Below are positions 3,975 to 25,502 of a DNA stretch of 40,355 nucleotides, in pieces. Numbering within the stretch: the stretch's first letter is position 1; each line of letters begins with the position of its first letter. The translations under genes were made by a program, and so were the position numbers. Under the pieces are notes generated by a model. The model searched no databases. It was given only the letters and a program-made list of their open reading frames with translations, and was not told where the DNA came from. Origin of the DNA: a virus; IMG/VR virus record IMGVR_UViG_3300034018_000585, positions 1-40,355 of that record; one strand, 5' to 3'.

Positions 3975-4669
3975 AACAGCAACAGGATTTCCTCGTCGTC
4001 CATGTCAATGTAGGCGTTCCACAGACGCTCAATAGCGTCGGCGCTCTGCATGATCTTGTCGATATCCAGGCGCGGGGCTGCGGTGGCCTTGGCTTGCTTG
4101 GGCTCTGGGTCGGCATATTGCGCGATCAGTTCCTCAATGACCGGCGACTTGCCTTCAACCAGGACTTCATAAGCGTTGATAATGTCGCGCTTGCGTTTTC
4201 TGCGTTCGTCTCGTTCACGCTTGAACTTGCGCGGCAAGTAATCGCCATCGTGGGTGTCGTCCACGATGATGGGTTGCGGCACCGTAATCTGGATGCTCGC
4301 AATGTCTTGTGCTTCGGTCGCGGCAAGGGCAACCGTGACGTTTGCGGAACTTACAGTTACGCCGATTGCTGCAATGTCTTGCGCTTCTGTAGCGGCAAGG
4401 TCGGCGGTTATGCTTGTTGAGCCAACGGTTATGTTGGCAGCCGCAATGTCCTGCGCCTCAGTGACGGCCAAAGAAACGGTAATGGTAACGGCTGGGGCCA
4501 AATAAGCCCCACCGCCCCCTGCTTCCATCAGGACGTTGGACGGCAGCGCGGTCGTCAGGTTCGCCCCGGCCAGCGCAGAGCCTTCAGCCCAAAAGCCTTG
4601 GACCGGGTTTGCTGTCCCCGGCGACCTTTGCAATTGCGCTGGTGCGCTGCCGCCGTAGAGGGCGACCAT
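3971..4669 (-). CDS. hypothetical virion protein with three internal beta repeats
   Basis: 232 residues. Residues about 60-130 hold three tandem repeats of about 25 residues, each centred on (L)A(A/V)TEAQDIA(A/S) and followed by a beta-strand stretch such as ITVGSTSITAD. The second half is different: very basic (KFKRERDERRKRKRD), then acidic helices ending DMDDEEILLLL. The position between portal and scaffold suggests a minor head or neck protein. I do not recognise a named family. It overlaps the next gene by ATGA and starts 1 bp after the 714-residue gene upstream. Confidence 0.7.
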   Translation of the reverse strand: MVALYGGSAPAQLQRSPGTANPVQGFWAEGSALAGANLTTALPSNVLMEAGGGGAYLAPAVTITVSLAVTEAQDIAAANITVGSTSITADLAATEAQDIAAIGVTVSSANVTVALAATEAQDIASIQITVPQPIIVDDTHDGDYLPRKFKRERDERRKRKRDIINAYEVLVEGKSPVIEELIAQYADPEPKQAKATAAPRLDIDKIMQSADAIERLWNAYIDMDDEEILLLL

Positions 4670-4670
4670 T

Positions 4671-6815
4671 TTATGCCACCGTTAGGGTCGCGTAGAGGTC
4701 AATGCCGGAAGGGAGCGAAGCGGTCGGGACAAAGCGGCGGCGGGTGTTGAGCGTGTCAGTCCCCAGGCCGTTGGTCCAAGCCGTGCCGTTCCAATACTGG
4801 AAGTTTCCGTTGGTCGAGCCGCTGGACGCCTGCGTCAGCACAAGCGCGTTGGTATCGGCGCGGTAGATGTCGATGGTGTGGGTCGTCAGGCTGGCCCCAA
4901 AGAGCGCGGCCTGTATCCAGGCAAAGGTGCCGTTCGAGGCGTCAAAGTCCCCGAAGTTCCAGCGATACTGGCTCGGCAGTTCGTCCGCCGTCTCATAGAC
5001 CAGGGCCAGCGACAGGACGCGGGCGGGGAGCATGATGACGCCCGCCGTGCGGAACTGAAACGCGAACTGGATGTTCGCCGCAGGGAGAACACCCGACAGG
5101 TCGCCGGTCTGCGGAACATCCGTCCACGCGCCCGAGTTGTCGTCAATCCCGCTGGTCCGATACTGGATTTTGAAGGCGTCGGGGGTCACGCCCATCGTGG
5201 CGTCCCCGAGGTTCTCCATGCAGTTCACCAGCACCCGATAGAGTTTGTCGGGGGTCGCGCCGAGGGCGATCTTCGGGCAGATGATGCGGTTGTTCACATC
5301 GGCCTGATACTCCCAGTCCGCCGCGAGCGGGTAGGCGGTCATGGCCGACTGGTTGGCGGTGGTGCCGGTCGCGTAGACCCAGAACAGCCAGCCATCCTCT
5401 ACCCAGACAAATGGGCTGACGCCGGTGCCCGTGTAGTGGACAAACAGCGGGCTGTCCGTGTCTCGGAGAGACGATGCGAGCTGTCCAGTGGTGCAGCTTG
5501 CCCGCCGGTCAATCTGCTGACCGCCGGTGTAATAGTCTGTGATGTAGATTGCGCCGGTGGAACCCGTCGAGTTGGCGATCACCAGCTTGTCGATGGAGCC
5601 CGCCACATCCAGAGAGATGAAGCCCGCGCCCGCGAGGTTTGTGTTTGTTCCCCCTGGCACCACTTCCGACATCGTGTCCGCGATGAAGGTCGTGTTGCCG
5701 GAGGTCACGTTGGCAATAGGGACGCGGATGATCCGCGAGGCGGTGAACAGGTAAACCGAGGCCACCCCGGAGCCTGACCCGTGACTGAGCGTGGCGACCC
5801 GGCCATTGTTGGCCTGAGAGATGTTGCCAGTAACGGTCTGAGCCCCGGTAATGACCATGTTCGAACCCGTCAGCACCATCGCGCCAGCGGTCACGGTCAG
5901 CGGGGCGCGGATGTTGTAGCGGTAGAGGACGAGGGAGGTCGCAGCGCCTTCGGTGCTGTAGACGTATTGCTCCGTCCACGAGGTCCAGTCGCCAAGGGCG
6001 CAGCCGCCAATGACATCGTTCGTGATCGTGGCGGCATCCTTCAGCCAGTAGGTCGCCTTGATCTTGTCCACCGTGGTCGCCGCCGGGATAGCCGTGGCGG
6101 GGTTCTGGAAGTCCTCGTAGCGAAGGCCCTTCGTGATGAACAGACCGCCGTTGGTCACGGTCGCGTTGGTCGTAGCCTGAACGACCATTAGGTCTTGAAT
6201 GACGTAGGGCGTCCCCGCCGAGATAGTCCCCGCAGAGGTCGTCAGGGTAATGCCGGTGTCCGAGCCGATGGCGCTGATCTGATACCAAGTCGTGATCTGC
6301 GTCGGATCGGTCGAGCCAAAGCCGATGCGCGAGCCGACAGATAGACCCGTGGCCCAGACCGTGCTGGTGCCCGTGACGCCGGTGCCAGAAACCGCCACCG
6401 TGCCGGTCGTGTAGTTTTCGAGGATGACCCGGAAGCCGCGCACTGTGTGGGCAGTCGCGGTCGGGAATGTGCAGGTGATCGCGCCAACGAAGGTGTAGAG
6501 GTTGGTCGAGGGAACCCAGGTCCAAAGCTGGACACGCCGGGTCGCCGCCGCCGTCGCTACGTCAGCGCCAAAGACCCAAAACAGGTCGTCGGTGATCTTG
6601 ACGGGATGCACATACGCGGAAGGGATCGCCAGCGAGGACTCACCGAAGTTCGCCACGCCAAGGGGTGCGGGGCCAATGAACTTGTCCACCTCGCCGGAGC
6701 CCAGGGAAAACTGCCCGGTGTGCTTGCCGCGATTGATCTTCGTCGCGTCGTAGGAGCCGCCAATGGCGACCTGCGAATACGTCCCGTTGAAGACCTGTTC
6801 GACCGCCGCTTTCAT
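4671..6815 (-). CDS. large beta-rich putative virion protein
   Basis: 714 residues, dominated by Thr, Ser, Gly and Val in short beta-strand patterns, with no signal peptide or membrane segment. It contains a motif series such as TGTVAVSGTGVTGTSTVWATG and paired tryptophan/tyrosine strands (WYQISAIGSDTGITL), typical of phage structural proteins that form trimers or sheets. No catalytic motif is apparent. It lies between the portal and scaffold genes, an odd place for a tail fibre, so it may be a head-surface or neck appendage. The start overlaps the 60-residue gene upstream by ATGA. Function is inferred only from composition and context. Confidence 0.7.
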   Translation of the reverse strand: MKAAVEQVFNGTYSQVAIGGSYDATKINRGKHTGQFSLGSGEVDKFIGPAPLGVANFGESSLAIPSAYVHPVKITDDLFWVFGADVATAAATRRVQLWTWVPSTNLYTFVGAITCTFPTATAHTVRGFRVILENYTTGTVAVSGTGVTGTSTVWATGLSVGSRIGFGSTDPTQITTWYQISAIGSDTGITLTTSAGTISAGTPYVIQDLMVVQATTNATVTNGGLFITKGLRYEDFQNPATAIPAATTVDKIKATYWLKDAATITNDVIGGCALGDWTSWTEQYVYSTEGAATSLVLYRYNIRAPLTVTAGAMVLTGSNMVITGAQTVTGNISQANNGRVATLSHGSGSGVASVYLFTASRIIRVPIANVTSGNTTFIADTMSEVVPGGTNTNLAGAGFISLDVAGSIDKLVIANSTGSTGAIYITDYYTGGQQIDRRASCTTGQLASSLRDTDSPLFVHYTGTGVSPFVWVEDGWLFWVYATGTTANQSAMTAYPLAADWEYQADVNNRIICPKIALGATPDKLYRVLVNCMENLGDATMGVTPDAFKIQYRTSGIDDNSGAWTDVPQTGDLSGVLPAANIQFAFQFRTAGVIMLPARVLSLALVYETADELPSQYRWNFGDFDASNGTFAWIQAALFGASLTTHTIDIYRADTNALVLTQASSGSTNGNFQYWNGTAWTNGLGTDTLNTRRRFVPTASLPSGIDLYATLTVA

Positions 6816-6994
6816 GCCGCGTTTCCTTCATCAATTCCGAGGACCGACATCGCCAGAAACGCGCAGATGGGGCCGTTGGTGTCAATTAATCGTCTGCATG
6901 GAACAAAATCCAAAAGCTCATAGGAGCCGCTTACTGCAACTTCATACGAGGCATTTTCGGCCACTAAAACCCCCTGCTCAATAACATAGGCCAT
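6812..6994 (-). CDS. small hypothetical protein
   Basis: 60 residues (starts MAYVIEQGVLVAENASYEVA). An AAGG ribosome site lies 6 bases before the ATG at 6994, and the stop overlaps the start of the next gene by ATGA. Both features support a real coupled gene. No motif is recognised; two Cys residues are present (PCRRL and PICAF). Confidence 0.6.
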   Translation of the reverse strand: MAYVIEQGVLVAENASYEVAVSGSYELLDFVPCRRLIDTNGPICAFLAMSVLGIDEGNAA

Positions 6995-6999
6995 GTGCC

Positions 7000-7374
7000 T
7001 TATCCGTGCGTAATCGTCGCAGAGGTCAAATCAACGTTTTGGCCCGAAGAAAACGTCGTAGTGCTAACAATAACGTTTGTGCCACTAGTGCCGACTGTCA
7101 GGCCGTCGCAGACTACAGTGCCGGTGGAATCTTTGAACCGGGCCAAAGCCGCTACACCATTGTTTGACGCCGTGGTGCTGATCGGCAGGGCGTTAAACGT
7201 CAAAACGCCGCTCGACACGGTGCCGCACGGGTCATCCAGCGTGATGGTTGCCAGCACGGTCGTGTAGCCGGTAGTGCAGACCTCCAGCGTGCCCGGTCCC
7301 GCGCCGCCGTCGATGGCATCGCGCACCGCCGTCATGCGGGTGTTCTTGACCGTCGTGCTGTAGTTAACCGCCAT
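7000..7374 (-). CDS. hypothetical virion protein
   Basis: 124 residues. The N-terminal VKNTRMTAVRDAIDGGAGPGTLEVCTTG is a conserved-looking opening that I associate with small structural proteins near portal genes. The remainder is Thr/Ser/Val-rich beta strands (GVLTFNALPISTTASNNGVA). No enzymatic motif. Its start lies inside the last codons of the portal gene (11-bp overlap), so it is translated from the same late message. A structural role is inferred from neighbours. Confidence 0.65.
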   Translation of the reverse strand: MAVNYSTTVKNTRMTAVRDAIDGGAGPGTLEVCTTGYTTVLATITLDDPCGTVSSGVLTFNALPISTTASNNGVAALARFKDSTGTVVCDGLTVGTSGTNVIVSTTTFSSGQNVDLTSATITHG

Positions 7375-9643
7375 TGGTCACAACCTCCACACCGACCGCG
7401 CGTCCATCAGGGCCACGCACAAGCCGCTTGGGCGCGGTCAGGCTGCTAAGAACGCCGTCGAGGCGCTCCATCGTCTGTCCGTGCATGTTCATCATGTCAT
7501 TGTAGGTGGACGAAATGCCTTCCATGACTTCTTTCATGGTTTCGGCCATATCGCTTGCCGACTGCTGTTGAGACTCAAGGAACGGCACATCGGCCCCAGG
7601 ATTGGCCCCAATCCGCGCCACCATGATCTTCGTGGCCGCGTCCAGTTCGGCCTTCCAGCGGTCAAACTGCTCTTGCTGGGCCATTTCCTGAACGCGCATC
7701 TGCGCCTCAAACTCTTGCTTGCGGCGCTCCAGTTCGGCGCTCATCTGCGCCTTCATCTGCTCGACTTGTAGGTCAGCCTGCATACGCGCCTGTTGCAGTT
7801 GAGAATCGCTCTGAATCTTCATCTGCGCGGCTTGTTGGTCGGCCTGCATCTTCATTTTCGCGGCCTGCTGCTCTGCCTGCACCTTCATCATTTCAGGGTC
7901 CGGTTGCGGGTTTTGGGCGGCTTCAGCCTGCTTCTGCTCAAGCTTTTGCAATGCCGCGTCAATCGTGCCTTCAATAGGCCGGGCCTGCTTGAAGGACGAC
8001 ACGGCAAACCGCATGATCTGCATGAGCATCGGCGTCAGTTCGGGCACTTGCTGGCCCGCCGTCACGGCCTCACGCAGGAAGTTGCCGAACGCGCCGATGA
8101 ACTCAATGCGCTCCTGCTTGACCTGCTGTTCGTCAAGCTGGACAAGGCTATCCGCCGCCACTTCGATACGGAAATTCCGTAGAGGGTTGGCGGAAATAAG
8201 CTCCAGGGCCTGCGGGATCATTTGCTGATCCTCGCGCGTCATCTGGTCCGCAGCCGCGTATTTCAGGATGGTTTCGGGCTGGAACTTGGAACTGATGATC
8301 TGCGCCTTCAGGCGGATCAGGTCCGTCGCAAACAGCGCCACGGCTTCCTGCATGGACCGCAGACGCAGACCCGCATACTGGCCCTTGATCTGCTGCGCGG
8401 TGGCCGTCTCGCTCGCAGCCGTCTGGCCGCGAATGATGTCCGAGATGCCCGTGATCTCGTAAATCTGGCTCTTGATCTGCTGTTGCGCCTGATAGCACTG
8501 GATCAGGGTCGCCGCGATGGCGTCAATGGGCAGAAGGTCAATTGTCCCTTTAAGGCCACCTTTCTCGCTAAAAGCGGCCCATTTGTCCGTAGGGATTAAA
8601 GTATTGTTGTCGCCCTCAGTCAGCAGGCGCTGAAGCGCGGGCTGCGAGGCGTCATAGATACCGCGAACGCGGAGCGCCTTGACCAGCCCGTCGATGCGGT
8701 CAGTCAGGATATCCAGTTCGTTCGCCTGATCCTGATACAGCACAAAATCGGGGATCGGGACCAGCGAATCCGTCGTCGTGGTCGCATAAAGCGGCTTGGC
8801 GCACGGGAAGAAGCCCTCAACGCCCAGCGGGTCGTCGCGTTCGTCCAGCAGTTCGGGATAGGATTCGCTGAACCAATAGACCTTTTGCGTCTCGCGGTCC
8901 CACAGTTCGCAAATCTTGGCTTGGTCGTTCTGTTTGCTGGATTGCCCGTATTTGGTCAGGCCCTCGGGCGAGTCATTGGTCGGAATACGCCGGGCCAGTT
9001 CCTCGCCAAAGCGTTCCTGTAAAGCAGGCTTTGACATATAGACCCAACGCCAAACCTGAGTGACTTCTTCCCAGGTCCGCGCGACGTTGTGACCAAAGTC
9101 CTTCCAATGGACGTAATCCGTCGGCGCACACTCGTATTCGATGGCCTCTTGGGGCTCTTGGCCCTGATTGTCGCCTTCGGGATCAACGTCCTCAGTGACC
9201 TGATAACCGTCCTCAGGCTCGCCAACCTGCACGATATGCGGGTCATAGCGCACCCAGGCCACGCCGCGACCGCCAAGGAAGCGATCCTCAACCGCGTTCT
9301 TCATCGCAGCGCGGAAGTCGGGATAATGCTCAATTTCGTAGTCAAGCGCCCGCTCAAGAAGCAGGCTCGCCACCCGGCCTACAGGATCATTGTCCGCAAA
9401 ACGCCGTGAAACGTCCGCCTTGGGCAGCCGCGAGAACACGGCGGGCACCAGGGTCTGCACATTCGACCACAAGACGTTGAAACGGGCCGATTCTGAGCCC
9501 GTCGCGCCGCTTGTCCGCACATCATCACGATAGCGGCGGATGATCTTGGTAGCGCGAGCCTCCCACTTGGTGAACTCGCGGTTATATTGCCCGATGACGT
9601 TCAGGTATTTTTGCAGGGCGGGAGTAACAGGCAATTCAGCCAC
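7364..9643 (-). CDS. portal protein (P22-type)
   Basis: 759 residues, the size expected for a P22-like portal. The dodecameric portal forms the DNA entry and exit ring at one head vertex and binds the terminase during packaging. The N-terminal RRYRDDVRTSGATGSESARFNVLWSN region, the LPKADVSRRF motif and the central helical core (ITGISDIIRGQTAASETATA) are characteristic of this family. Residues about 560-700 form a long Gln/Met/Lys/Ala-rich coiled coil, matching the barrel region of P22 portals. The C-terminus ends with a basic loop (APKRLVRGPDGRAVG). It sits two genes after the large terminase. Confidence 0.92.
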   Translation of the reverse strand: MAELPVTPALQKYLNVIGQYNREFTKWEARATKIIRRYRDDVRTSGATGSESARFNVLWSNVQTLVPAVFSRLPKADVSRRFADNDPVGRVASLLLERALDYEIEHYPDFRAAMKNAVEDRFLGGRGVAWVRYDPHIVQVGEPEDGYQVTEDVDPEGDNQGQEPQEAIEYECAPTDYVHWKDFGHNVARTWEEVTQVWRWVYMSKPALQERFGEELARRIPTNDSPEGLTKYGQSSKQNDQAKICELWDRETQKVYWFSESYPELLDERDDPLGVEGFFPCAKPLYATTTTDSLVPIPDFVLYQDQANELDILTDRIDGLVKALRVRGIYDASQPALQRLLTEGDNNTLIPTDKWAAFSEKGGLKGTIDLLPIDAIAATLIQCYQAQQQIKSQIYEITGISDIIRGQTAASETATAQQIKGQYAGLRLRSMQEAVALFATDLIRLKAQIISSKFQPETILKYAAADQMTREDQQMIPQALELISANPLRNFRIEVAADSLVQLDEQQVKQERIEFIGAFGNFLREAVTAGQQVPELTPMLMQIMRFAVSSFKQARPIEGTIDAALQKLEQKQAEAAQNPQPDPEMMKVQAEQQAAKMKMQADQQAAQMKIQSDSQLQQARMQADLQVEQMKAQMSAELERRKQEFEAQMRVQEMAQQEQFDRWKAELDAATKIMVARIGANPGADVPFLESQQQSASDMAETMKEVMEGISSTYNDMMNMHGQTMERLDGVLSSLTAPKRLVRGPDGRAVGVEVVTNGG

Positions 9644-15543: not shown

Positions 15544-16074
15544 ATGACCCCCCCCTGGACCCCCGAACAAGACCGCCAGCTTCTAGACCTGCAAGCTGGC
15601 GGTCATAGCGCCACCGAGATTGGCCGCACCATGCACAAGACGCGCAACGCCATCATAGGCCGTCTGTGGCGTCTCAGGCAGGTCGGCCTTGGCCTACCCG
15701 TCCGTAAGGCTGGCAAACGCGCTACGCTCCCCAAAGAGCCCAAGCCGGAGCCCGTGTTGCGCTATCCCAAGGAAAAGCCCGTCACGCTATCCACCGCCGC
15801 CAATATCGGCACGCCGCCACCCAAAGCACACATTACCAAGCGGCCTTGGCGCGAAGTCATGGACGAAGCCTTTTCGCCCATCCCAGGATCACGCCCGACG
15901 CGGCTTATGGACCGTGCCCCCATGTCTTGCGCGTGGCCTGTAGGCGGCGACGGCGAGGGGCTGTTAAGTTGCGCCATGCCCACTACCGGGCATGTCTATT
16001 GCGACCATCACCGGCGGATTGCCTATGTCCAGGCAAAGCCGCTAGACGTTAAACGCTACATGAGGATGAGATAA
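15544..16074 (+). CDS. GcrA-like cell-cycle regulator homologue
   Basis: 176 residues. The N-terminal domain WTPEQDRQLLDLQAGGHSAT (residues 5-24) continues to EIGRTMHKTRNAIIGRLWRL, the GcrA SANT-like fold. The C-terminal part has C129 in SCAWPVGGDGEG, C143, and VYCDHH at 152-156, matching the GcrA C-terminal CxWP and CxHH pattern that binds the sigma-70 domain 2. In Caulobacter GcrA activates sigma-70 promoters near methylated GANTC sites. Here it would redirect host RNA polymerase or mimic the host factor. The middle is proline/lysine-rich linker. The family assignment is strong; target promoters are not known. Confidence 0.85.
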   Translation: MTPPWTPEQDRQLLDLQAGGHSATEIGRTMHKTRNAIIGRLWRLRQVGLGLPVRKAGKRATLPKEPKPEPVLRYPKEKPVTLSTAANIGTPPPKAHITKRPWREVMDEAFSPIPGSRPTRLMDRAPMSCAWPVGGDGEGLLSCAMPTTGHVYCDHHRRIAYVQAKPLDVKRYMRMR

Positions 16075-16075
16075 C

Positions 16076-16531
16076 ATGACACCTGAAGAACTGGACGAAG
16101 CGCGAGCCAAGGAGGCTTGGCGCAAGTGTGATGCCTTGGGTTTTGGAAAAGACTATGAAAGCCCCGCCATCATCGCCGCCCGCTTAGCCCGCGAAGGCTG
16201 GACCCCGCCGCCGCCCGTTGATCCTGAGGTGCTGGCATATCGGGAGTGGGAGGTTAGCCAGCTTACAGATCACTTCGACCGGGAGAAAGTGCTTGCTGGA
16301 AAATGGGACCGAGGCGTCACCGCAACCGCCTACCTCGCCGGAGCCCGCATGGCCCGAGAGCAGGAACAGGAGCGGGCGAAGGTGCTGGTCGAGCCTGCCG
16401 AGGCTATCGTCAACCGCGCCGTGAGGGGGACGGGCTCAAACGATCTCCGCTGGCCCCACATCCTCAAAGCCGCCCGGCGGTTGGAGAAGGGCCTGAACGC
16501 CTACAAGGCCGGGAAGGAGGCGGGCAAATGA
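16076..16531 (+). CDS. hypothetical early protein, 151 residues
   Basis: Starts MTPEELDEARAKEAWRKCDA one base after the GcrA-like stop, with GAGGATGAG inside the previous gene. It is helical and charged. The central segment GVTATAYLAGARMAREQEQE resembles segments of small coiled phage proteins of this region. It ends AYKAGKEAGK, a variant of the KEAD ends of the genes that follow. The stop overlaps the next gene by ATGA. Confidence 0.6.
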   Translation: MTPEELDEARAKEAWRKCDALGFGKDYESPAIIAARLAREGWTPPPPVDPEVLAYREWEVSQLTDHFDREKVLAGKWDRGVTATAYLAGARMAREQEQERAKVLVEPAEAIVNRAVRGTGSNDLRWPHILKAARRLEKGLNAYKAGKEAGK

Positions 16532-16710
16532 CCCCCACCGAACAAGCCCGCAAAGCCGTAGGCTACGCGCTCGAAGAGGCCGAGATGTTTGACGGCATGA
16601 GCCGCCAGGACGTTGAACGCCACCATGCCGCCTTGGCCGCTATGCCTGACACGCTATTGGTATCGCTGGCCCGCCAGCTATGGACCGTTAAGAGGGAGAC
16701 GATGCGATGA
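16528..16710 (+). CDS. small hypothetical protein, 60 residues
   Basis: Starts MTPTEQARKAVGYALEEAEM at the ATG at 16528, inside AAATGA of the previous stop. All-helical and amphipathic (DVERHHAALAAMPDTLLVSL). Overlaps the next gene by ATGA. No known domain. Confidence 0.6.
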   Translation: MTPTEQARKAVGYALEEAEMFDGMSRQDVERHHAALAAMPDTLLVSLARQLWTVKRETMR

Positions 16711-17033
16711 GCAAACTTATTGAAGGCCCCGGAGACGACCTAGTTTGGGAGTCTGAGGACGACGCTACCCGCTGGGTAGATAGCCACCCCGAACTTACTT
16801 ACGCGGAAGAGATGGAGGCCGCAGCGAAGGCCTACCGCGCCGGTCGGGCCGCATCCGCCGAACGGATCAAGGCACTGGAGGAGGCTCTGAGGCCGCTGGA
16901 CGAGTGTGCGATTATTGGATCGGACTCTGGGTCGCGGCGGGCTTGGAATCCGGACGATCACGGCGCGCGATACTTCATTACCTACAGAGAAATCCGCCGC
17001 GCCCGCGCTCTGCTCAAGGAGGCTGACCAATGA
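16707..17033 (+). CDS. hypothetical early protein with ASAERIKALEE helix
   Basis: 108 residues starting MSKLIEGPGDDLVWESEDDA. The helix RAGRAASAERIKALEEALRP recurs almost exactly in the next gene (QAASAERIKALEEENAAL) and in part at 17987 (DRIKALELM). The end LLKEADQ is encoded by the boundary element AAGGAGGCTGACC, which is also the ribosome site of the next gene. No catalytic motif. It is probably a small helical accessory protein. Confidence 0.6.
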   Translation: MSKLIEGPGDDLVWESEDDATRWVDSHPELTYAEEMEAAAKAYRAGRAASAERIKALEEALRPLDECAIIGSDSGSRRAWNPDDHGARYFITYREIRRARALLKEADQ

Positions 17034-17506
17034 CTGAACCCGACGAGGCCCTGCTGTGGGCGAGGGACCATGAACTTAGGTCGCTTTTGGCGGCAGCTTC
17101 TCCCGGCCCTTGGCACCACGTTAACGCTGGCAAGGTTTCACGCAAGACGCGCACCGTTCACGGCACGGTTCCCGCCGAGCCCATCGACTATGTGTCAACA
17201 TGGCCCGGCCTTGGAACCCCTCCCGGCCACCGCGTTATCGTGCATCGTGAAGCCGGGGCTCGCACGGCTGATCTGGCGCTGATTGCCGAAGCCCCGGCCC
17301 TAGCTTCGGAAGTCCTCAATCTCCGCGCCGGTCAGGCCGCATCCGCCGAGCGGATCAAGGCGCTGGAGGAGGAGAACGCCGCCTTGGAGGAAATGGCGGG
17401 AAACCTTCAGGTCCGCATGAGCGACATGCTGGAGCGGCTGGAGGAGCGATACCCCGAGGACTTCGTGTGGCTAACAGAAGAACCCGCAAAGGAGGCTGAC
17501 CAGTGA
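17030..17506 (+). CDS. Ead/Ea22-like coiled-coil protein
   Basis: 158 residues. The N-terminal LRSLLAAASPGPWHHVNAGK has the LxxxxxATPGPW-type motif of Ead/Ea22-like phage proteins, followed by ARTADLALIAEAPALASEVL, also typical, and then a coiled coil (SAERIKALEEENAALEEMAG). Ead/Ea22 proteins are common in phage early regions; their role is not well known. It ends EEPAKEADQ through the shared boundary element. The start overlaps the previous stop as ATGA. Confidence 0.65.
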   Translation: MTEPDEALLWARDHELRSLLAAASPGPWHHVNAGKVSRKTRTVHGTVPAEPIDYVSTWPGLGTPPGHRVIVHREAGARTADLALIAEAPALASEVLNLRAGQAASAERIKALEEENAALEEMAGNLQVRMSDMLERLEERYPEDFVWLTEEPAKEADQ

Positions 17507-17805
17507 CTGACTGGATCGAACACGACGGCGGACCCCAGCCGGTCGCGGATGATGTGTGGGTGTATGTCGTGGACCCCATCGACGGCAATTATCAAAGCGC
17601 GTCTGACGAAGTCGATTGGCCCAACGCGGAACGATACCGCGTCCTCAACCAGCACCTGATCGACGCCGCCCGGCTAGAAGGCATCCGGCTAGGGCTGGAG
17701 GCTGCTGCGAGGGAGGCCGTCAATTGGGCTGTCATGCCCGCCAACTTTGACGCCGCCATCCGCCTACTCGACCCCGCCACCATCGCAAAGGAGGCTGACC
17801 GGTGA
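17503..17805 (+). CDS. DWIEH-domain protein, paralogue 1
   Basis: 100 residues; a GTG at 17503 overlapping the previous stop is the start. It opens MTDWIEHDGGPQPVADDVWV with an ASDEVDWPNAERYRVLNQH block, the small 'DWI-xH-xGG-xCPV...V-V...A...W...YRV' domain widespread in phage accessory regions. A helical tail follows (IRLGLEAAAREAVNWAVM). Paralogues with the same opening lie at 18843 and 19250. Function of this domain is unknown to me. Ends IAKEADR through the boundary element. Confidence 0.65.
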   Translation: MTDWIEHDGGPQPVADDVWVYVVDPIDGNYQSASDEVDWPNAERYRVLNQHLIDAARLEGIRLGLEAAAREAVNWAVMPANFDAAIRLLDPATIAKEADR

Positions 17806-17990
17806 GTGAGGTCCACGTTGAGGTGAAGTGCATCAACGCGCATGACAGGTGCTTTGAAGGCGGCCCCTGTCCGCTTTGCGAGGTGGTCCGCTACCGGGAC
17901 GAACAGGGCCGGTTTGTCAAACCCAGGGGGCGCTCCTCGTTAAATGAGGCTCTGGCCGCCGCTCTGCATGTCAAGGAGGCTGACCGGTGA
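17802..17990 (+). CDS. small Cys-containing hypothetical protein
   Basis: 62 residues from a GTG at 17802. Four cysteines lie in an ordered pattern: KCINAHDRCFEGGPCPLCEV, i.e. C-x7-C-x5-C-x2-C. This may bind a metal ion. It ends HVKEADR. The GTGA overlap and strong ribosome site support translation. Confidence 0.55.
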   Translation: MSEVHVEVKCINAHDRCFEGGPCPLCEVVRYRDEQGRFVKPRGRSSLNEALAAALHVKEADR

Positions 17991-18157
17991 GTGACGATGA
18001 CCGCATCAAGGCGCTGGAGTTGATGGCGGTGCTGTCCGAGATTTTCAATCGCCCTGAGTTGAGCAGAGTGCGGTGGGAGGAGCCGGATCGCGTTACCTAT
18101 CTCATTCGTCGTGCTGGCTTTCTCGCCGGGTTTCTTGCCGGGGAGGCTGACCAGTGA
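17987..18157 (+). CDS. small hypothetical protein, 56 residues
   Basis: Starts with GTG at 17987, reads MSDDDRIKALELMAVLSEIF, and ends FLAGEADQ at the TGA at 18157. The RIKALE segment repeats that of two upstream genes. It is helical, with a mildly hydrophobic second half (RRAGFLAGFLAG). The boundary element on both sides makes it part of the coupled series. Confidence 0.55.
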   Translation: MSDDDRIKALELMAVLSEIFNRPELSRVRWEEPDRVTYLIRRAGFLAGFLAGEADQ

Positions 18158-22513: not shown

Positions 22514-22912
22514 ATGACAAACGAAGAAACCGCCCTGGCGTCGCTTGCCGACGCTTGGGTTCAAGCCAAGCACGCCGAAGCCCAAGCCAACGCCCACCGA
22601 GTCGCAATCGAAGAGGAAATCATCGCCATCACCGGAGCCAAAGACGAAGGCCGCGAAACGCACACAGCCGGAACCTACAAGATCGTCGTCATCGGAAAGC
22701 TGACCTACAAAGCCGACATCACCGAAATCGAAACCCTCAGCCGCAACTTCCCCGACAACCTGAAGGTGCTGAAAACCACAATCGCAATCGATGAGCCCAA
22801 GCTTAAGAAGCTGCGCGAATATCGCCCCGACCTCTACAAGCGCCTGAGCCCCGCCCTCACCGTCAAGCCCGCCAAGACCGGAATCCAAATCGAAAGCCGC
22901 GACAATGTTTGA
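22514..22912 (+). CDS. hypothetical protein of recombination operon
   Basis: 132 residues, with a very strong ribosome site (GGAAGGAGAAACC) before the ATG. The N-terminal helix (LADAWVQAKHAEAQANAHRV) is followed by EEEIIAITGAKDEGRETHTA and a beta part (YKIVVIGKLTYKADI). This layout is common in small proteins encoded just before Sak4-like ATPases in phages; it may assist the recombinase, but its activity is unknown. It overlaps the ATPase gene by 8 bp. Confidence 0.65.
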   Translation: MTNEETALASLADAWVQAKHAEAQANAHRVAIEEEIIAITGAKDEGRETHTAGTYKIVVIGKLTYKADITEIETLSRNFPDNLKVLKTTIAIDEPKLKKLREYRPDLYKRLSPALTVKPAKTGIQIESRDNV

Positions 22913-23630
22913 CCTGAAATCCATCCGCAAATCCGAAGCCATCTCGGCCCCTCGCGTCATGCTCTATGGCGTTGAGGGGATCGGCAAGACCACCTTCGCC
23001 GCCGGGGCTCCTAGCCCTGTGTTCATCCTGACTGAGGATGGCCTGGGCTCGCTCAAGGTGGATCATTTCCCGCTTGCCCGCTCTACCAGCGACGTTCTGG
23101 AAGCTATTGGGACGCTCTACAGCGAAGCCCACGACTTCAAGACCGTGGTCCTGGATTCCGCCGACTGGCTGGAGAACATGATCTGGCAGGAAGTCGAAGC
23201 CAAGTATGACGCTAAAGACCTCGCCTATGGCAAGGGCGCGGTGCTTGTGGCGAACCGCTGGCGGGAAATGCTTGACGGCCTGGACGCCCTGCGTAACGAC
23301 CGCAAGATGGCCGTTATCCTGATCGCGCACTGCACGATCAAGCGTTTCGACAGCCCTGAAGTCGAGCCTTACGACCGCTATCAGCCGAAACTACAGGACC
23401 GTTCCAGCGCTATCCTTCGGGAATGGGCCGACGCGGTGCTGTTCGGCAACTACAAGACCCTCGTCAAGAAGGACGACGTTGGGTTCAACAAAACCAGCAA
23501 TCGCGGAATTTCGACCGGCGAGAGGCTTCTCTATACCAACGAGCGCCCGGCCTACATGGCGAAAAACCGCTATAGCCTTCCCGACCATATCCCTATGGCC
23601 TGGGATGAATTCGAAGCCGCAATCAACTAG
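22905..23630 (+). CDS. Sak4-like RecA-fold ATPase (AAA_24)
   Basis: 241 residues. Walker A GVEGIGKTT lies at 22-30 and Walker B TVVLDS at 80-85, then ADWLENMIWQEVEAKYDAK, a signature of the AAA_24/Sak4 group. KMAVILIAHCTIKRFDSPE gives the sensor strand. Sak4 proteins are short RecA/Rad51-like recombinases that promote single-strand annealing together with a phage SSB. The downstream DUF669 and nuclease genes support a recombination role. The family is well matched; annealing activity is inferred. Confidence 0.85.
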   Translation: MFDLKSIRKSEAISAPRVMLYGVEGIGKTTFAAGAPSPVFILTEDGLGSLKVDHFPLARSTSDVLEAIGTLYSEAHDFKTVVLDSADWLENMIWQEVEAKYDAKDLAYGKGAVLVANRWREMLDGLDALRNDRKMAVILIAHCTIKRFDSPEVEPYDRYQPKLQDRSSAILREWADAVLFGNYKTLVKKDDVGFNKTSNRGISTGERLLYTNERPAYMAKNRYSLPDHIPMAWDEFEAAIN

Positions 23631-23642
23631 GAGCCTAAACCA

Positions 23643-24107
23643 ATGCCCTCTATCGACTTTGACGTTACCCAATACGAAGCCGCCCCGCGTTCGGACTTCG
23701 CGCCCCTGCCTCCCGGCGAATATACCGCCGTGGTGACGCGGACGGACCTGAAGCCCACTAAGGCGGGCAATGGCGAGTATATCGAACTCACCATCGACAT
23801 CATCGACGGCGAACATTCGGGCCGCAAGATTTGGGAGCGCCTGAACGTCAACAATCCGTCTGAGCAGACGATGCAGATTGCCCGTAGCCAGCTTAACCAG
23901 CTTGCCACGGCGGTCAGCCAACTGCCCCTGTCCGACACCGACCAGTTGCTCGAAATCCCGTTCACGCTGCATCTGGATATCGACCGCAAGGACCAGACCC
24001 GCAACCGTGTGATGGGCTATTCGGCATCGGGCGGTTCCAAGCCCGTGCTTGCAAAGCCGGTCGCTGCCAAGGCTGAACCCACTACCAAGAAGCCCTGGGA
24101 GCGATAA
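23643..24107 (+). CDS. DUF669-family, probable single-strand DNA-binding partner
   Basis: 154 residues. The segment LPPGEYTAVVTRTDLKPTKA followed by GNGEYIELTIDIIDGEHSGR and KIWERLNVNNPSEQTMQIA is the DUF669 pattern. DUF669 genes accompany Sak4-like ATPases and RecB-like nucleases in many phages and are thought to bind single-stranded DNA. A basic, Ala/Pro-rich C-terminal tail (KPVLAKPVAAKAEPTTKKPW) may be flexible. It starts 12 bp after the ATPase stop. Confidence 0.85.
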   Translation: MPSIDFDVTQYEAAPRSDFAPLPPGEYTAVVTRTDLKPTKAGNGEYIELTIDIIDGEHSGRKIWERLNVNNPSEQTMQIARSQLNQLATAVSQLPLSDTDQLLEIPFTLHLDIDRKDQTRNRVMGYSASGGSKPVLAKPVAAKAEPTTKKPWER

Positions 24108-24111
24108 GACG

Positions 24112-25137
24112 ATGGTCGCAGTGCCTGCCCCCACGCGGACGACCGCGAGCGAGATTTACGCTTGGTATGAGAGGAGAAAGGAGGACTTCCGGGATCACCT
24201 CGGCGCGTCTCTGATCGGGCATCACTGCGACCGTTATCTGTGGCTGACGTTCCGTTGGGTTGAGTTGCCTCAATTCAACGGGCGTCTCCTACGCATCTTT
24301 TCGACCGGCAAGCGAGAAGAGCCGCGCATTTACGAAGAGTTGCGCGGGATCGGCGTTGAACTGCATACCGAAGAGGCCGACGGAAAGCAGATTGAATGTA
24401 GGGATGAGACGGGTCATTTCGGCGGTTCCGTTGATGGGATCGGTCAAGGCTTTCCAGAGGGGCCTAAAACCTGGGCGGTTCTGGAAATCAAGACGCACTC
24501 GTCAAAGTCATACCACGAAGTGCGGACCAAGACTGTCAAGGAAGCCAAGCCCCAGCACTACGCCCAGATGCAGACCTACATGGGCCTCATGAAACTGGAC
24601 CGGGCCATGTATATGGCCGTCAACAAGGACACCGACGAAATCTATACGGAATGGGTCCACTTTGACCGCAAGGTGTTCGAGTCCCTGATGGACCGCGCCA
24701 AGCGCACGATCAACATGACCGCGCCTCCGGGGCGGATCAGCGACGACCCGGCCAACTGGCAATGCAAAATGTGCGACTTCTACAAGTTCTGCCATCACGA
24801 CGGCCTGCCTGCGGTGAATTGTCGCACCTGTTCACATTCCACGCCTGTCGATAAGGGCATGTGGAAGTGTGGCCTGCATAACAAGTGGCTGACTGGCGCG
24901 GAGCAGCGCAAGGGCTGCGATAGCCATATCTTCATCCCGCCGCTTGTCCCAGCCAACCCGATTGATGGCGGCGAGAACTACGTCGAGTATCAGGCTAAGG
25001 ACGGGACCACGTTCAAGAATGGCCCAGGATTCGAGCCTAGCGAAATGCTGCTGAAGTCCGCCAAGGCCGCTACGCCTAAGCGCAAGAAGATTGGCGACAA
25101 TGGCGGCGTTCCGTTTGACGACGAGATTCCATTTTAG
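24112..25137 (+). CDS. Cas4/RecB-like PD-(D/E)XK exonuclease with Fe-S cysteines
   Basis: 341 residues from the ATG at 24112, which has GGGAG upstream. The nuclease core shows GGSVDGI at 104-110, LEIKT at 124-128 and QHYAQMQTYM at 148-157, the Cas4/RecB motifs II, III and QhxxY. Cys39 and the cluster C218-x2-C221-x5-C227 match the iron-sulfur cysteines of Cas4 and AddB nucleases. A second set (C237, C240, C253, C269 with a nearby His) follows and may bind zinc. It would resect DNA ends for the Sak4 pair. No cas1 or CRISPR is present, so a CRISPR role is not supported. Confidence 0.85.
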   Translation: MVAVPAPTRTTASEIYAWYERRKEDFRDHLGASLIGHHCDRYLWLTFRWVELPQFNGRLLRIFSTGKREEPRIYEELRGIGVELHTEEADGKQIECRDETGHFGGSVDGIGQGFPEGPKTWAVLEIKTHSSKSYHEVRTKTVKEAKPQHYAQMQTYMGLMKLDRAMYMAVNKDTDEIYTEWVHFDRKVFESLMDRAKRTINMTAPPGRISDDPANWQCKMCDFYKFCHHDGLPAVNCRTCSHSTPVDKGMWKCGLHNKWLTGAEQRKGCDSHIFIPPLVPANPIDGGENYVEYQAKDGTTFKNGPGFEPSEMLLKSAKAATPKRKKIGDNGGVPFDDEIPF

Positions 25138-25145
25138 GTGACGAC

Positions 25146-25502
25146 ATGACCGGACGCATGAGTAGGAACAAAGGCGCTCGCGGCGAGAACGAACTCGCCA
25201 AGCTGCTATCGGATGAACTCGGCTTCGTCGTGAAGCGCAACCTGGGCCAAGCCCGCGACGGTGCGGACGACATCACGGTCGGACCCTATCGCATTGAGTG
25301 CAAGCGCCAGGAGACACTTGCTATCATGAAGTGGTGCCGTCAGGTGGAGGCTTGCTCAAAGCCGGGGGAAATCCCGACCGTTATCTACCGCCAGAACGGG
25401 GAGCAATGGCGCGTTGTATTGCGGCTTGAACACTTCCTCCCATTGCTGCGTGAGCATCTGGCAGAACTGCCATCGCAACCGCCTTCGCCTGAACTTCCCT
25501 GA
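25146..25502 (+). CDS. Hjc-like PD-(D/E)XK endonuclease
   Basis: 118 residues. RNKGARGENELAKLLSDELG opens with the conserved Glu14. DITV has Asp42, and IECKR gives Glu51-x-Lys53, together a PD-(D/E)XK site of Holliday-junction-resolvase type. WCRQVEACSKPGEIPTVIYR is a further pattern of this phage family. It probably resolves recombination or replication intermediates before packaging. AGGTGA lies 6 bases before the ATG. Its last 122 bases overlap the 3' end of the endolysin gene on the other strand, which is unusually long. Confidence 0.8.
   Translation: MTGRMSRNKGARGENELAKLLSDELGFVVKRNLGQARDGADDITVGPYRIECKRQETLAIMKWCRQVEACSKPGEIPTVIYRQNGEQWRVVLRLEHFLPLLREHLAELPSQPPSPELP

Follow-up and report, generated by a model that had tools for sequence, protein, structure and literature searches.

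A coding gene-boundary joint links unlike small genes in a phage array and recurs in phages of distinct lineages

The window analyzed here, the whole 40,355-nt stretch of the IMG/VR virus record IMGVR_UViG_3300034018_000585, contains an array of small genes on the plus strand (Table 1). Six of these genes are joined by five copies of an 18-nt element, AAGGAGGCTGACC(A/G)(A/G)TGA (here, the joint), of which four are exact and one has two mismatches. All five lie on the plus strand, each at a 4-nt ATGA or GTGA overlap, and the proteins encoded upstream of joints 1 to 5 end in KEADQ, KEADQ, KEADR, KEADR, and GEADQ, respectively. The initial annotation, made from sequence alone, had described five such copies joining six genes, with (K/G)EAD(Q/R) protein ends and a perfect Shine-Dalgarno (SD) sequence for the following gene. 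This claim held, and a looser sixth joint with three mismatches can be added at position 16514. That the six genes are otherwise unrelated held only in part; the genes starting at 16707 and 17030 have in common an internal module of 50 nt, 94% identical between the two.

The joint (consensus AAGGAGGCTGACCRRTGA) is expected to match by chance 0.06 times in the window, and none of 100 shuffled sequences gave six matches. It forms a perfect SD sequence at a fixed 7-nt spacing. Its alanine codon is GCT at all five joints of the window, while GCT accounts for 20% of the alanine codons in the window's large genes. No inverted repeat is common to the five joints, which fold no better than shuffled sequences and each into a different fold; a hairpin or attC-like site at the joint was therefore rejected. 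No sigma-70-like promoter was detected on the plus strand of the array, in a scan that left out other promoter types.

Table 1. Positions of the array genes, joints, internal modules, and recombination genes in the window
Feature	Position	Strand	Remarks
Cassette MTPEELDEA...	16076..16531	+	Present in the window; cleanly missing between the GcrA-like gene and gene 16528 in sister phages G010 and G022
Looser joint, AAGGAGGCGGGCAAATGA	16514..16531	+	3 mismatches; tail KEAGK; closes the cassette missing from both sister phages
Left anchor gene MTPTEQAR... (TPTEQ)	16528..16710	+	About 90% nucleotide identity in the sisters; ends KRETMR in the window
Cassette A, 108 aa	16707..17033	+	Holds the 50-nt internal module
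50-nt internal module, copy 1	16835..16884	+	
Joint 1, AAGGAGGCTGACCAATGA	17016..17033	+	Exact; KEADQ tail of gene 16707, SD, start of gene 17030
Cassette B, TEPDEA type, 158 aa	17030..17506	+	Constant start, variable body, 50-nt module, KEADQ tail
50-nt internal module, copy 2	17323..17372	+	
Joint 2, AAGGAGGCTGACCAGTGA	17489..17506	+	Exact pattern match
Cassette C, DWIEHDGG type, 100 aa	17503..17805	+	Constant blocks alternate with variable blocks
Joint 3, AAGGAGGCTGACCGGTGA	17788..17805	+	Exact pattern match
Cassette D, EVHVEVKC...CFEGGPCPLC type, 62 aa	17802..17990	+	
Joint 4, AAGGAGGCTGACCGGTGA	17973..17990	+	Exact pattern match
Cassette E, DDDRIKALE...FLAGEADQ type, 56 aa	17987..18157	+	
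Joint 5, GGGGAGGCTGACCAGTGA	18140..18157	+	2 mismatches, GG for AA
Right anchor NPSWLILHI... (NPSWL), 54 aa	18154..18318	+	Class preceded by six different upstream classes
Sak4-like single-strand annealing protein	22905..23630	+	PHROG 124, E 4e-45
Single-strand DNA binding protein (SSB)	23643..24107	+	PHROG 6015, E 6e-32
Cas4/RecE-like exonuclease	24049..25137	+	PHROG 1990, E 7.5e-100; true start probably downstream of 24049
RusA-like Holliday junction resolvase	25146..25502	+	PHROG 244, E 3.7e-23

The 50-nt module (YRAGQAASAERIKALEE) occurs in 27 copies in the contig set described below, in unlike genes, and varies mainly at four synonymous positions; most of its positions, many third positions among them, are invariant. 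Together with the block structure of cassette C, this module shows that many array proteins are mosaics of short constant and variable blocks. Functional assignment was not achieved: cassette B gave only coiled-coil-type chance matches in Pfam, the PHROG search gave only a weak match to a family of unknown function, and no PDB entry matched the modelled structure of cassette C (mean pLDDT 75) at E <= 0.001. Upstream of the array, at 15544-16074, the phage carries a gene for a GcrA-like cell-cycle regulator (Pfam PF07750, E 1e-13), which suggests an alphaproteobacterial host; the array is probably one of alphaproteobacterial phages.

Two sister phages, G010 and G022, have a terminase (TerL) 99% identical to that of the window; their main structural blocks match its DNA at 96 to 97% identity, and the replication block of G010 does so at about 90%. 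The TPTEQ and NPSWL anchors enclose five genes in the window, three in G010, and two in G022, where the second gene fuses a TEPDEA-type start to a cassette-C-type end. The same two anchors enclose yet another filling in contig 3300049828, and the distance between the two anchor starts is 1626 in the window, 1194 in G010, 896 in G022, and 2108 in 3300049828. Cassette E is missing in both sisters and shows 89 to 91% nucleotide identity to four contigs from other phages. Likewise, gene 16076 and its 3' joint are present in the window and missing from both sisters, which run from the GcrA-like gene directly into the ATGA of the next gene. Thus, the fillings between shared anchors differ among sister phages, with edges at the joint. 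Elsewhere, a segment with a tail-fibre-like gene (4671-6815 within 4273-7386) has no DNA match in the compared parts of either sister and is flanked by DNA of 96 to 97% identity.

The end of the TPTEQ protein itself changes with its neighbor. It reads KRETMR in the window and in 3300049828 and KREADQ in G010 and G022, the switch lying inside the SD sequence. Because one protein has either end in closely related phages, the EADQ tail follows the joint and not the protein. This finding, and the retention of the joint in other reading frames (see below), bear out the proposal of the initial annotation that the shared last residues are caused by the DNA element.

To place the joint in a wider context, IMG/VR was scanned with the joint pattern, which returned 45 stretches, many of them holding two to five copies. 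The comparison set comprised 40 sequences, namely IMG/VR pattern matches, contigs found by cassette proteins, and two contigs from metagenome-assembled genomes (MAGs). Since the set was gathered partly by the joint pattern and by cassette proteins, its frequencies are not representative of phages at large, and gene calls were made by a simple script without curated support. Including close variants, 78 joints were found in 28 of the 40 contig sequences, linking 46 gene-start classes; among 75 transitions between start classes across a joint, 63 are distinct. When 907 gene starts of the non-redundant set were clustered without use of the pattern, the joint again emerged as the largest group (56 copies in 28 contigs, with 31 downstream and 27 upstream classes), the next-largest cluster containing 8 starts. 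The initial annotation had suggested a natural cassette-exchange region, to be refuted if gene content between the elements were fixed in all relatives or if the element were absent there. The element is present in the relatives and gene content between its copies is not fixed, so the suggestion stands, supported by the sister fillings and the scrambled transitions.

Several features indicate that the joint is conserved as a DNA sequence. At 4-nt overlaps with GGAGG at 7-nt spacing, the spacer CTGACC is found in 54 of 85 cases and no other spacer in more than 4; the joint is therefore not simply what any ribosome site needs. The EAD frame is read by the upstream gene in 60 of the 68 exact-core joints, another frame in 5 (giving protein ends KKGG or PAQGG), and no upstream gene was called in 3. 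Because the joint is also kept where another frame is read, its conservation is at the DNA level. EADQ-type tails are missing on genes without a following joint, such as the NPSWL genes. Some 20 different tails lead into the 18 nt of the joint, and just outside it identity drops to chance; a longer shared tail, either LLKEAD or TIAKEAD, is seen at about half of the joints. All downstream proteins have one of six residues (S, T, N, R, I, or K) in second position, as expected because the (A/G)TGA start forces a second codon beginning with A.

The carriers are not close relatives throughout. Compared with the window, terminases of other carriers show 91%, 45%, 38%, about 30%, or 26% identity or are barely or not detectable. 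In bacterial genomes, nine stretches with the exact AGTGA form were found, two of them multicopy, namely L064 (63-kb contig) and L066 (3-kb contig). On the L064 contig, which was binned as Aestuariivirga, there are genes for a phage terminase, a portal protein, and a primase, the first two belonging to PHROG families other than those of the window; both multicopy matches are likely to be phage DNA binned into MAGs. Thus, phages of distinct lineages share this connector and some of the cassettes, with the reservation that records may be fragments. Among isolated phages, we found no DNA match to the region, no protein match to cassette C or the GcrA-like gene, and only chance-level matches to the joint. 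Judged from the contigs alone, assembly chimeras seem unlikely, because the shared exact runs (11 to 22 nt in the window) are shorter than usual assembly k-mers and because arrays recur nearly unchanged in two contigs each (L029/L053, L024/L048, and L018/L061).

A few further arrangements were observed in these contigs. Other repeated junctions serving several unlike genes occur in related contigs: CAAAGGAGACTGCACG (ETAR tail), AAGCGGAGGGCAAGCG (EGKR tail), and CCAAGGGCGTGATGGG (GVMG tail). Records 3300043772_002320 (L081) and 3300034112_001908 (L090) have three tandem DWIEHDGG-type paralogues, two of which end in EAQHD over the next start. The 64-kb record 3300042392_000853 (L040 and L043) has joints at two separate places on opposite strands, with cassette types common to other phages. 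In 3300049828_000429 (L018, reverse strand 5975-7051), joints lie on both sides of a 358-aa pentapeptide-repeat-like cassette, which runs through the second of them in a different frame.

Homology between arrays ends at joints more often than random placement predicts (32 to 34% versus 4% of the ends of BLAST segments of at least 100 nt). In pairs with the same downstream but different upstream genes, and vice versa, identity steps at the joint from about 27%, the chance level, to 66 to 98% within about 15 nt. Identity of the joint itself tracks the upstream gene (0.93 to 0.99) and not the downstream gene (0.66 to 0.82, like unrelated pairs), so that the cassette unit is best described as an open reading frame (ORF) together with its 3' joint, which serves the gene after it. 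Between joints with unrelated neighbors, exact identity has a median of 16 nt, reaching at least 23 nt in 12% and at least 31 nt in 1.7%. Minimal efficient pairing lengths are quoted as 23 to 27 bp for Red-beta and 31 to 34 bp for RecA (PMC3945230); the shared identity is often below these lengths, which counts against exchange starting in the joint. Furthermore, in the same contigs the proportion of broken junctions is 0.815 without and 0.889 with the joint, and several small genes without a joint also switch neighbors, so the joint is not required for fluidity. The claim that exchange proceeds by homologous recombination at the joints is thus supported in part: edges at joints are seen, and initiation within the joint is inferred only.

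The window encodes Sak4-like, SSB, exonuclease, and RusA-like proteins, and some other carriers have Erf, so annealing-type recombination is available. The Sak4 protein of phage HK620 is able to anneal single strands even when they diverge, and its own SSB stimulates it (PMC5928155). Erf was found in three other joint-bearing records (G001, G002, and G011) and in two with cassette relatives only (G018 and G019), and RecT in none of 25 records; 16 of 22 joint-bearing records, many of them fragments, lack a clear Sak4, RecT, or Erf match. Because the recombinases differ among carriers, one dedicated recombinase is argued against. A tyrosine integrase (PF00589) is present in 4 of the 25 records and had no match in the window, and a site-specific integrase was rejected as the exchange agent on the latter ground.

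We consider it likely that the array is made up of exchangeable small-gene cassettes in a phage operon, behaving as connector-joined units. In this model, a cassette is an ORF opening with (A/G)TGA and closing with the 3' joint AAGGAGGCTGACC(A/G), and the joint serves at once as the final codons of the upstream protein, as the SD sequence at fixed spacing for the next gene, and as the shared stop/start. Any order of cassettes would then keep a working reading frame, probably with translational coupling, and the DNA of the joint may provide short homology for adding, losing, or swapping cassettes by annealing-type homologous recombination of the phage (Sak4/SSB/exonuclease in the window, Erf elsewhere) or of the host. 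Translational coupling, the start of exchange within the joint, and selection for positional freedom are all inferred. We therefore prefer to view the joint as a connector that renders exchanges harmless, and may also ease them, instead of calling it a proven hotspot.

The most serious alternative is ordinary mosaicism, in which illegitimate recombination, or longer homologies elsewhere, generates the junctions, selection keeps those with breaks at gene ends, and the joint is merely the passenger of a few successful tails. In its favor are the nearly equal mosaicism of junctions without the joint, joint identities that often lie below known pairing minima, and the longer tails LLKEAD and TIAKEAD at about half of the joints. 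However, this view does not account for some 20 tails on the same 18 nt with chance identity just outside, nor for the shared gene whose end differs by joint type between sister phages (ETMR versus EADQ), and illegitimate joining alone does not produce identical joints. We regard it as unlikely.

Two other readings appear still less plausible. If (K/G)EADQ/R were a functional C-terminal peptide, for docking or as a stability tag, shared DNA could result from coding over a ribosome site, and the EAD frame is indeed read at 60 of the 68 exact-core joints. However, a single protein ends in ETMR or EADQ depending on what comes next, the joint is kept in the KKGG and PAQGG frames, the GCT codon is fixed despite being a minority codon, and the tail is missing where no joint follows, as in the NPSWL genes; protein-level conservation is therefore very unlikely. 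Alternatively, the joint might be a ribosome site of these phages without any role in exchange, its spacer being under selection for translation initiation or serving as the binding site of a phage factor. The perfect SD sequence and its fixed spacing would fit this idea, and a like reading has been proposed for the start-associated sequences of cluster K mycobacteriophages (PMC3203893). Yet many other spacers are used by other genes of the same operon and phages, and homology breakpoints coincide with the joint, which leaves little room for an element acting in translation only.

Our preferred reading, of connector-joined cassettes, has its nearest precedents in lambdoid phages and mycobacteriophages. 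Lambdoid boundary sequences are short conserved sequences at module edges and proposed sites of homologous exchange (Clark et al. 2001, HK620; Susskind and Botstein 1978; cited in PMC3029335 and PMC2327257). The joint fits this description, being short, conserved in several phages, and placed where modules meet; the modules found there differ between phages, although recombination at the joint itself is inferred. Unlike those sequences, one joint serves dozens of unlike genes in one array and in several phage lineages, and it overlaps tail, SD, stop, and start. The cluster K start-associated sequences are short asymmetric repeats just upstream of many unlike nonstructural gene starts; they have the 13-bp consensus GGGATAGGAGCCC 3 to 7 bp before the start, about half have inverted repeats, paired and 17 bp long in the extended form, and the authors mention a possible target of homologous recombination (PMC3203893). 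Placement before the starts of many unlike genes is shared with the joint, whereas the joint consensus is AAGGAGGCTGACCRRTGA and not GGGATAGGAGCCC, its five copies share no inverted repeat, and no coding tail or cassette edges are described in the relevant passages of that work.

T4-type mobile regulatory cassettes (Arbiol et al. 2010; title from PMC4177764) are reportedly small repeated elements between early genes that are linked to module shuffling and consist of a promoter and a stem-loop in intergenic DNA; the joint has no conserved hairpin, and no sigma-70-like site was found on the plus strand of the array. Integron cassettes consist of an ORF and a shared 3' element in the same orientation and are promoterless, and their attC sites fold and need a tyrosine integrase. 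The array unit resembles them in being an ORF with a shared 3' element in one orientation, but no fold is conserved among the joints, and the window lacks a tyrosine integrase. Neither the integron nor the T4-cassette reading is thus supported by the fold, integrase, or promoter scans. In a limited search of the open-access literature, no earlier account of such a joint was found. Compared with known boundary sequences, the joint differs in sequence, is coding, and serves more unlike genes and more lineages; it would work like the lambdoid type and is placed like the cluster K type.

A bolder reading, for and against which we see similar weight, is that the joint is a common connector, a natural assembly standard, for unrelated phages of one host group. 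Each gene would end with the ribosome site of the next, and cassettes and domain-sized internal modules would circulate between lineages by annealing-type recombination.

It has long been disputed whether phage mosaics are produced by illegitimate joining or by homologous recombination at short boundary sequences. Because the boundary sequence described here is visible, repeated, directional, and common to distinct phage lineages, and comes with natural present/absent comparisons, it makes this dispute directly testable. The joint also offers a handle for finding fast-changing accessory genes of phages. By packing a coding tail, a ribosome site, and a start codon into one connector, it would leave gene order free.
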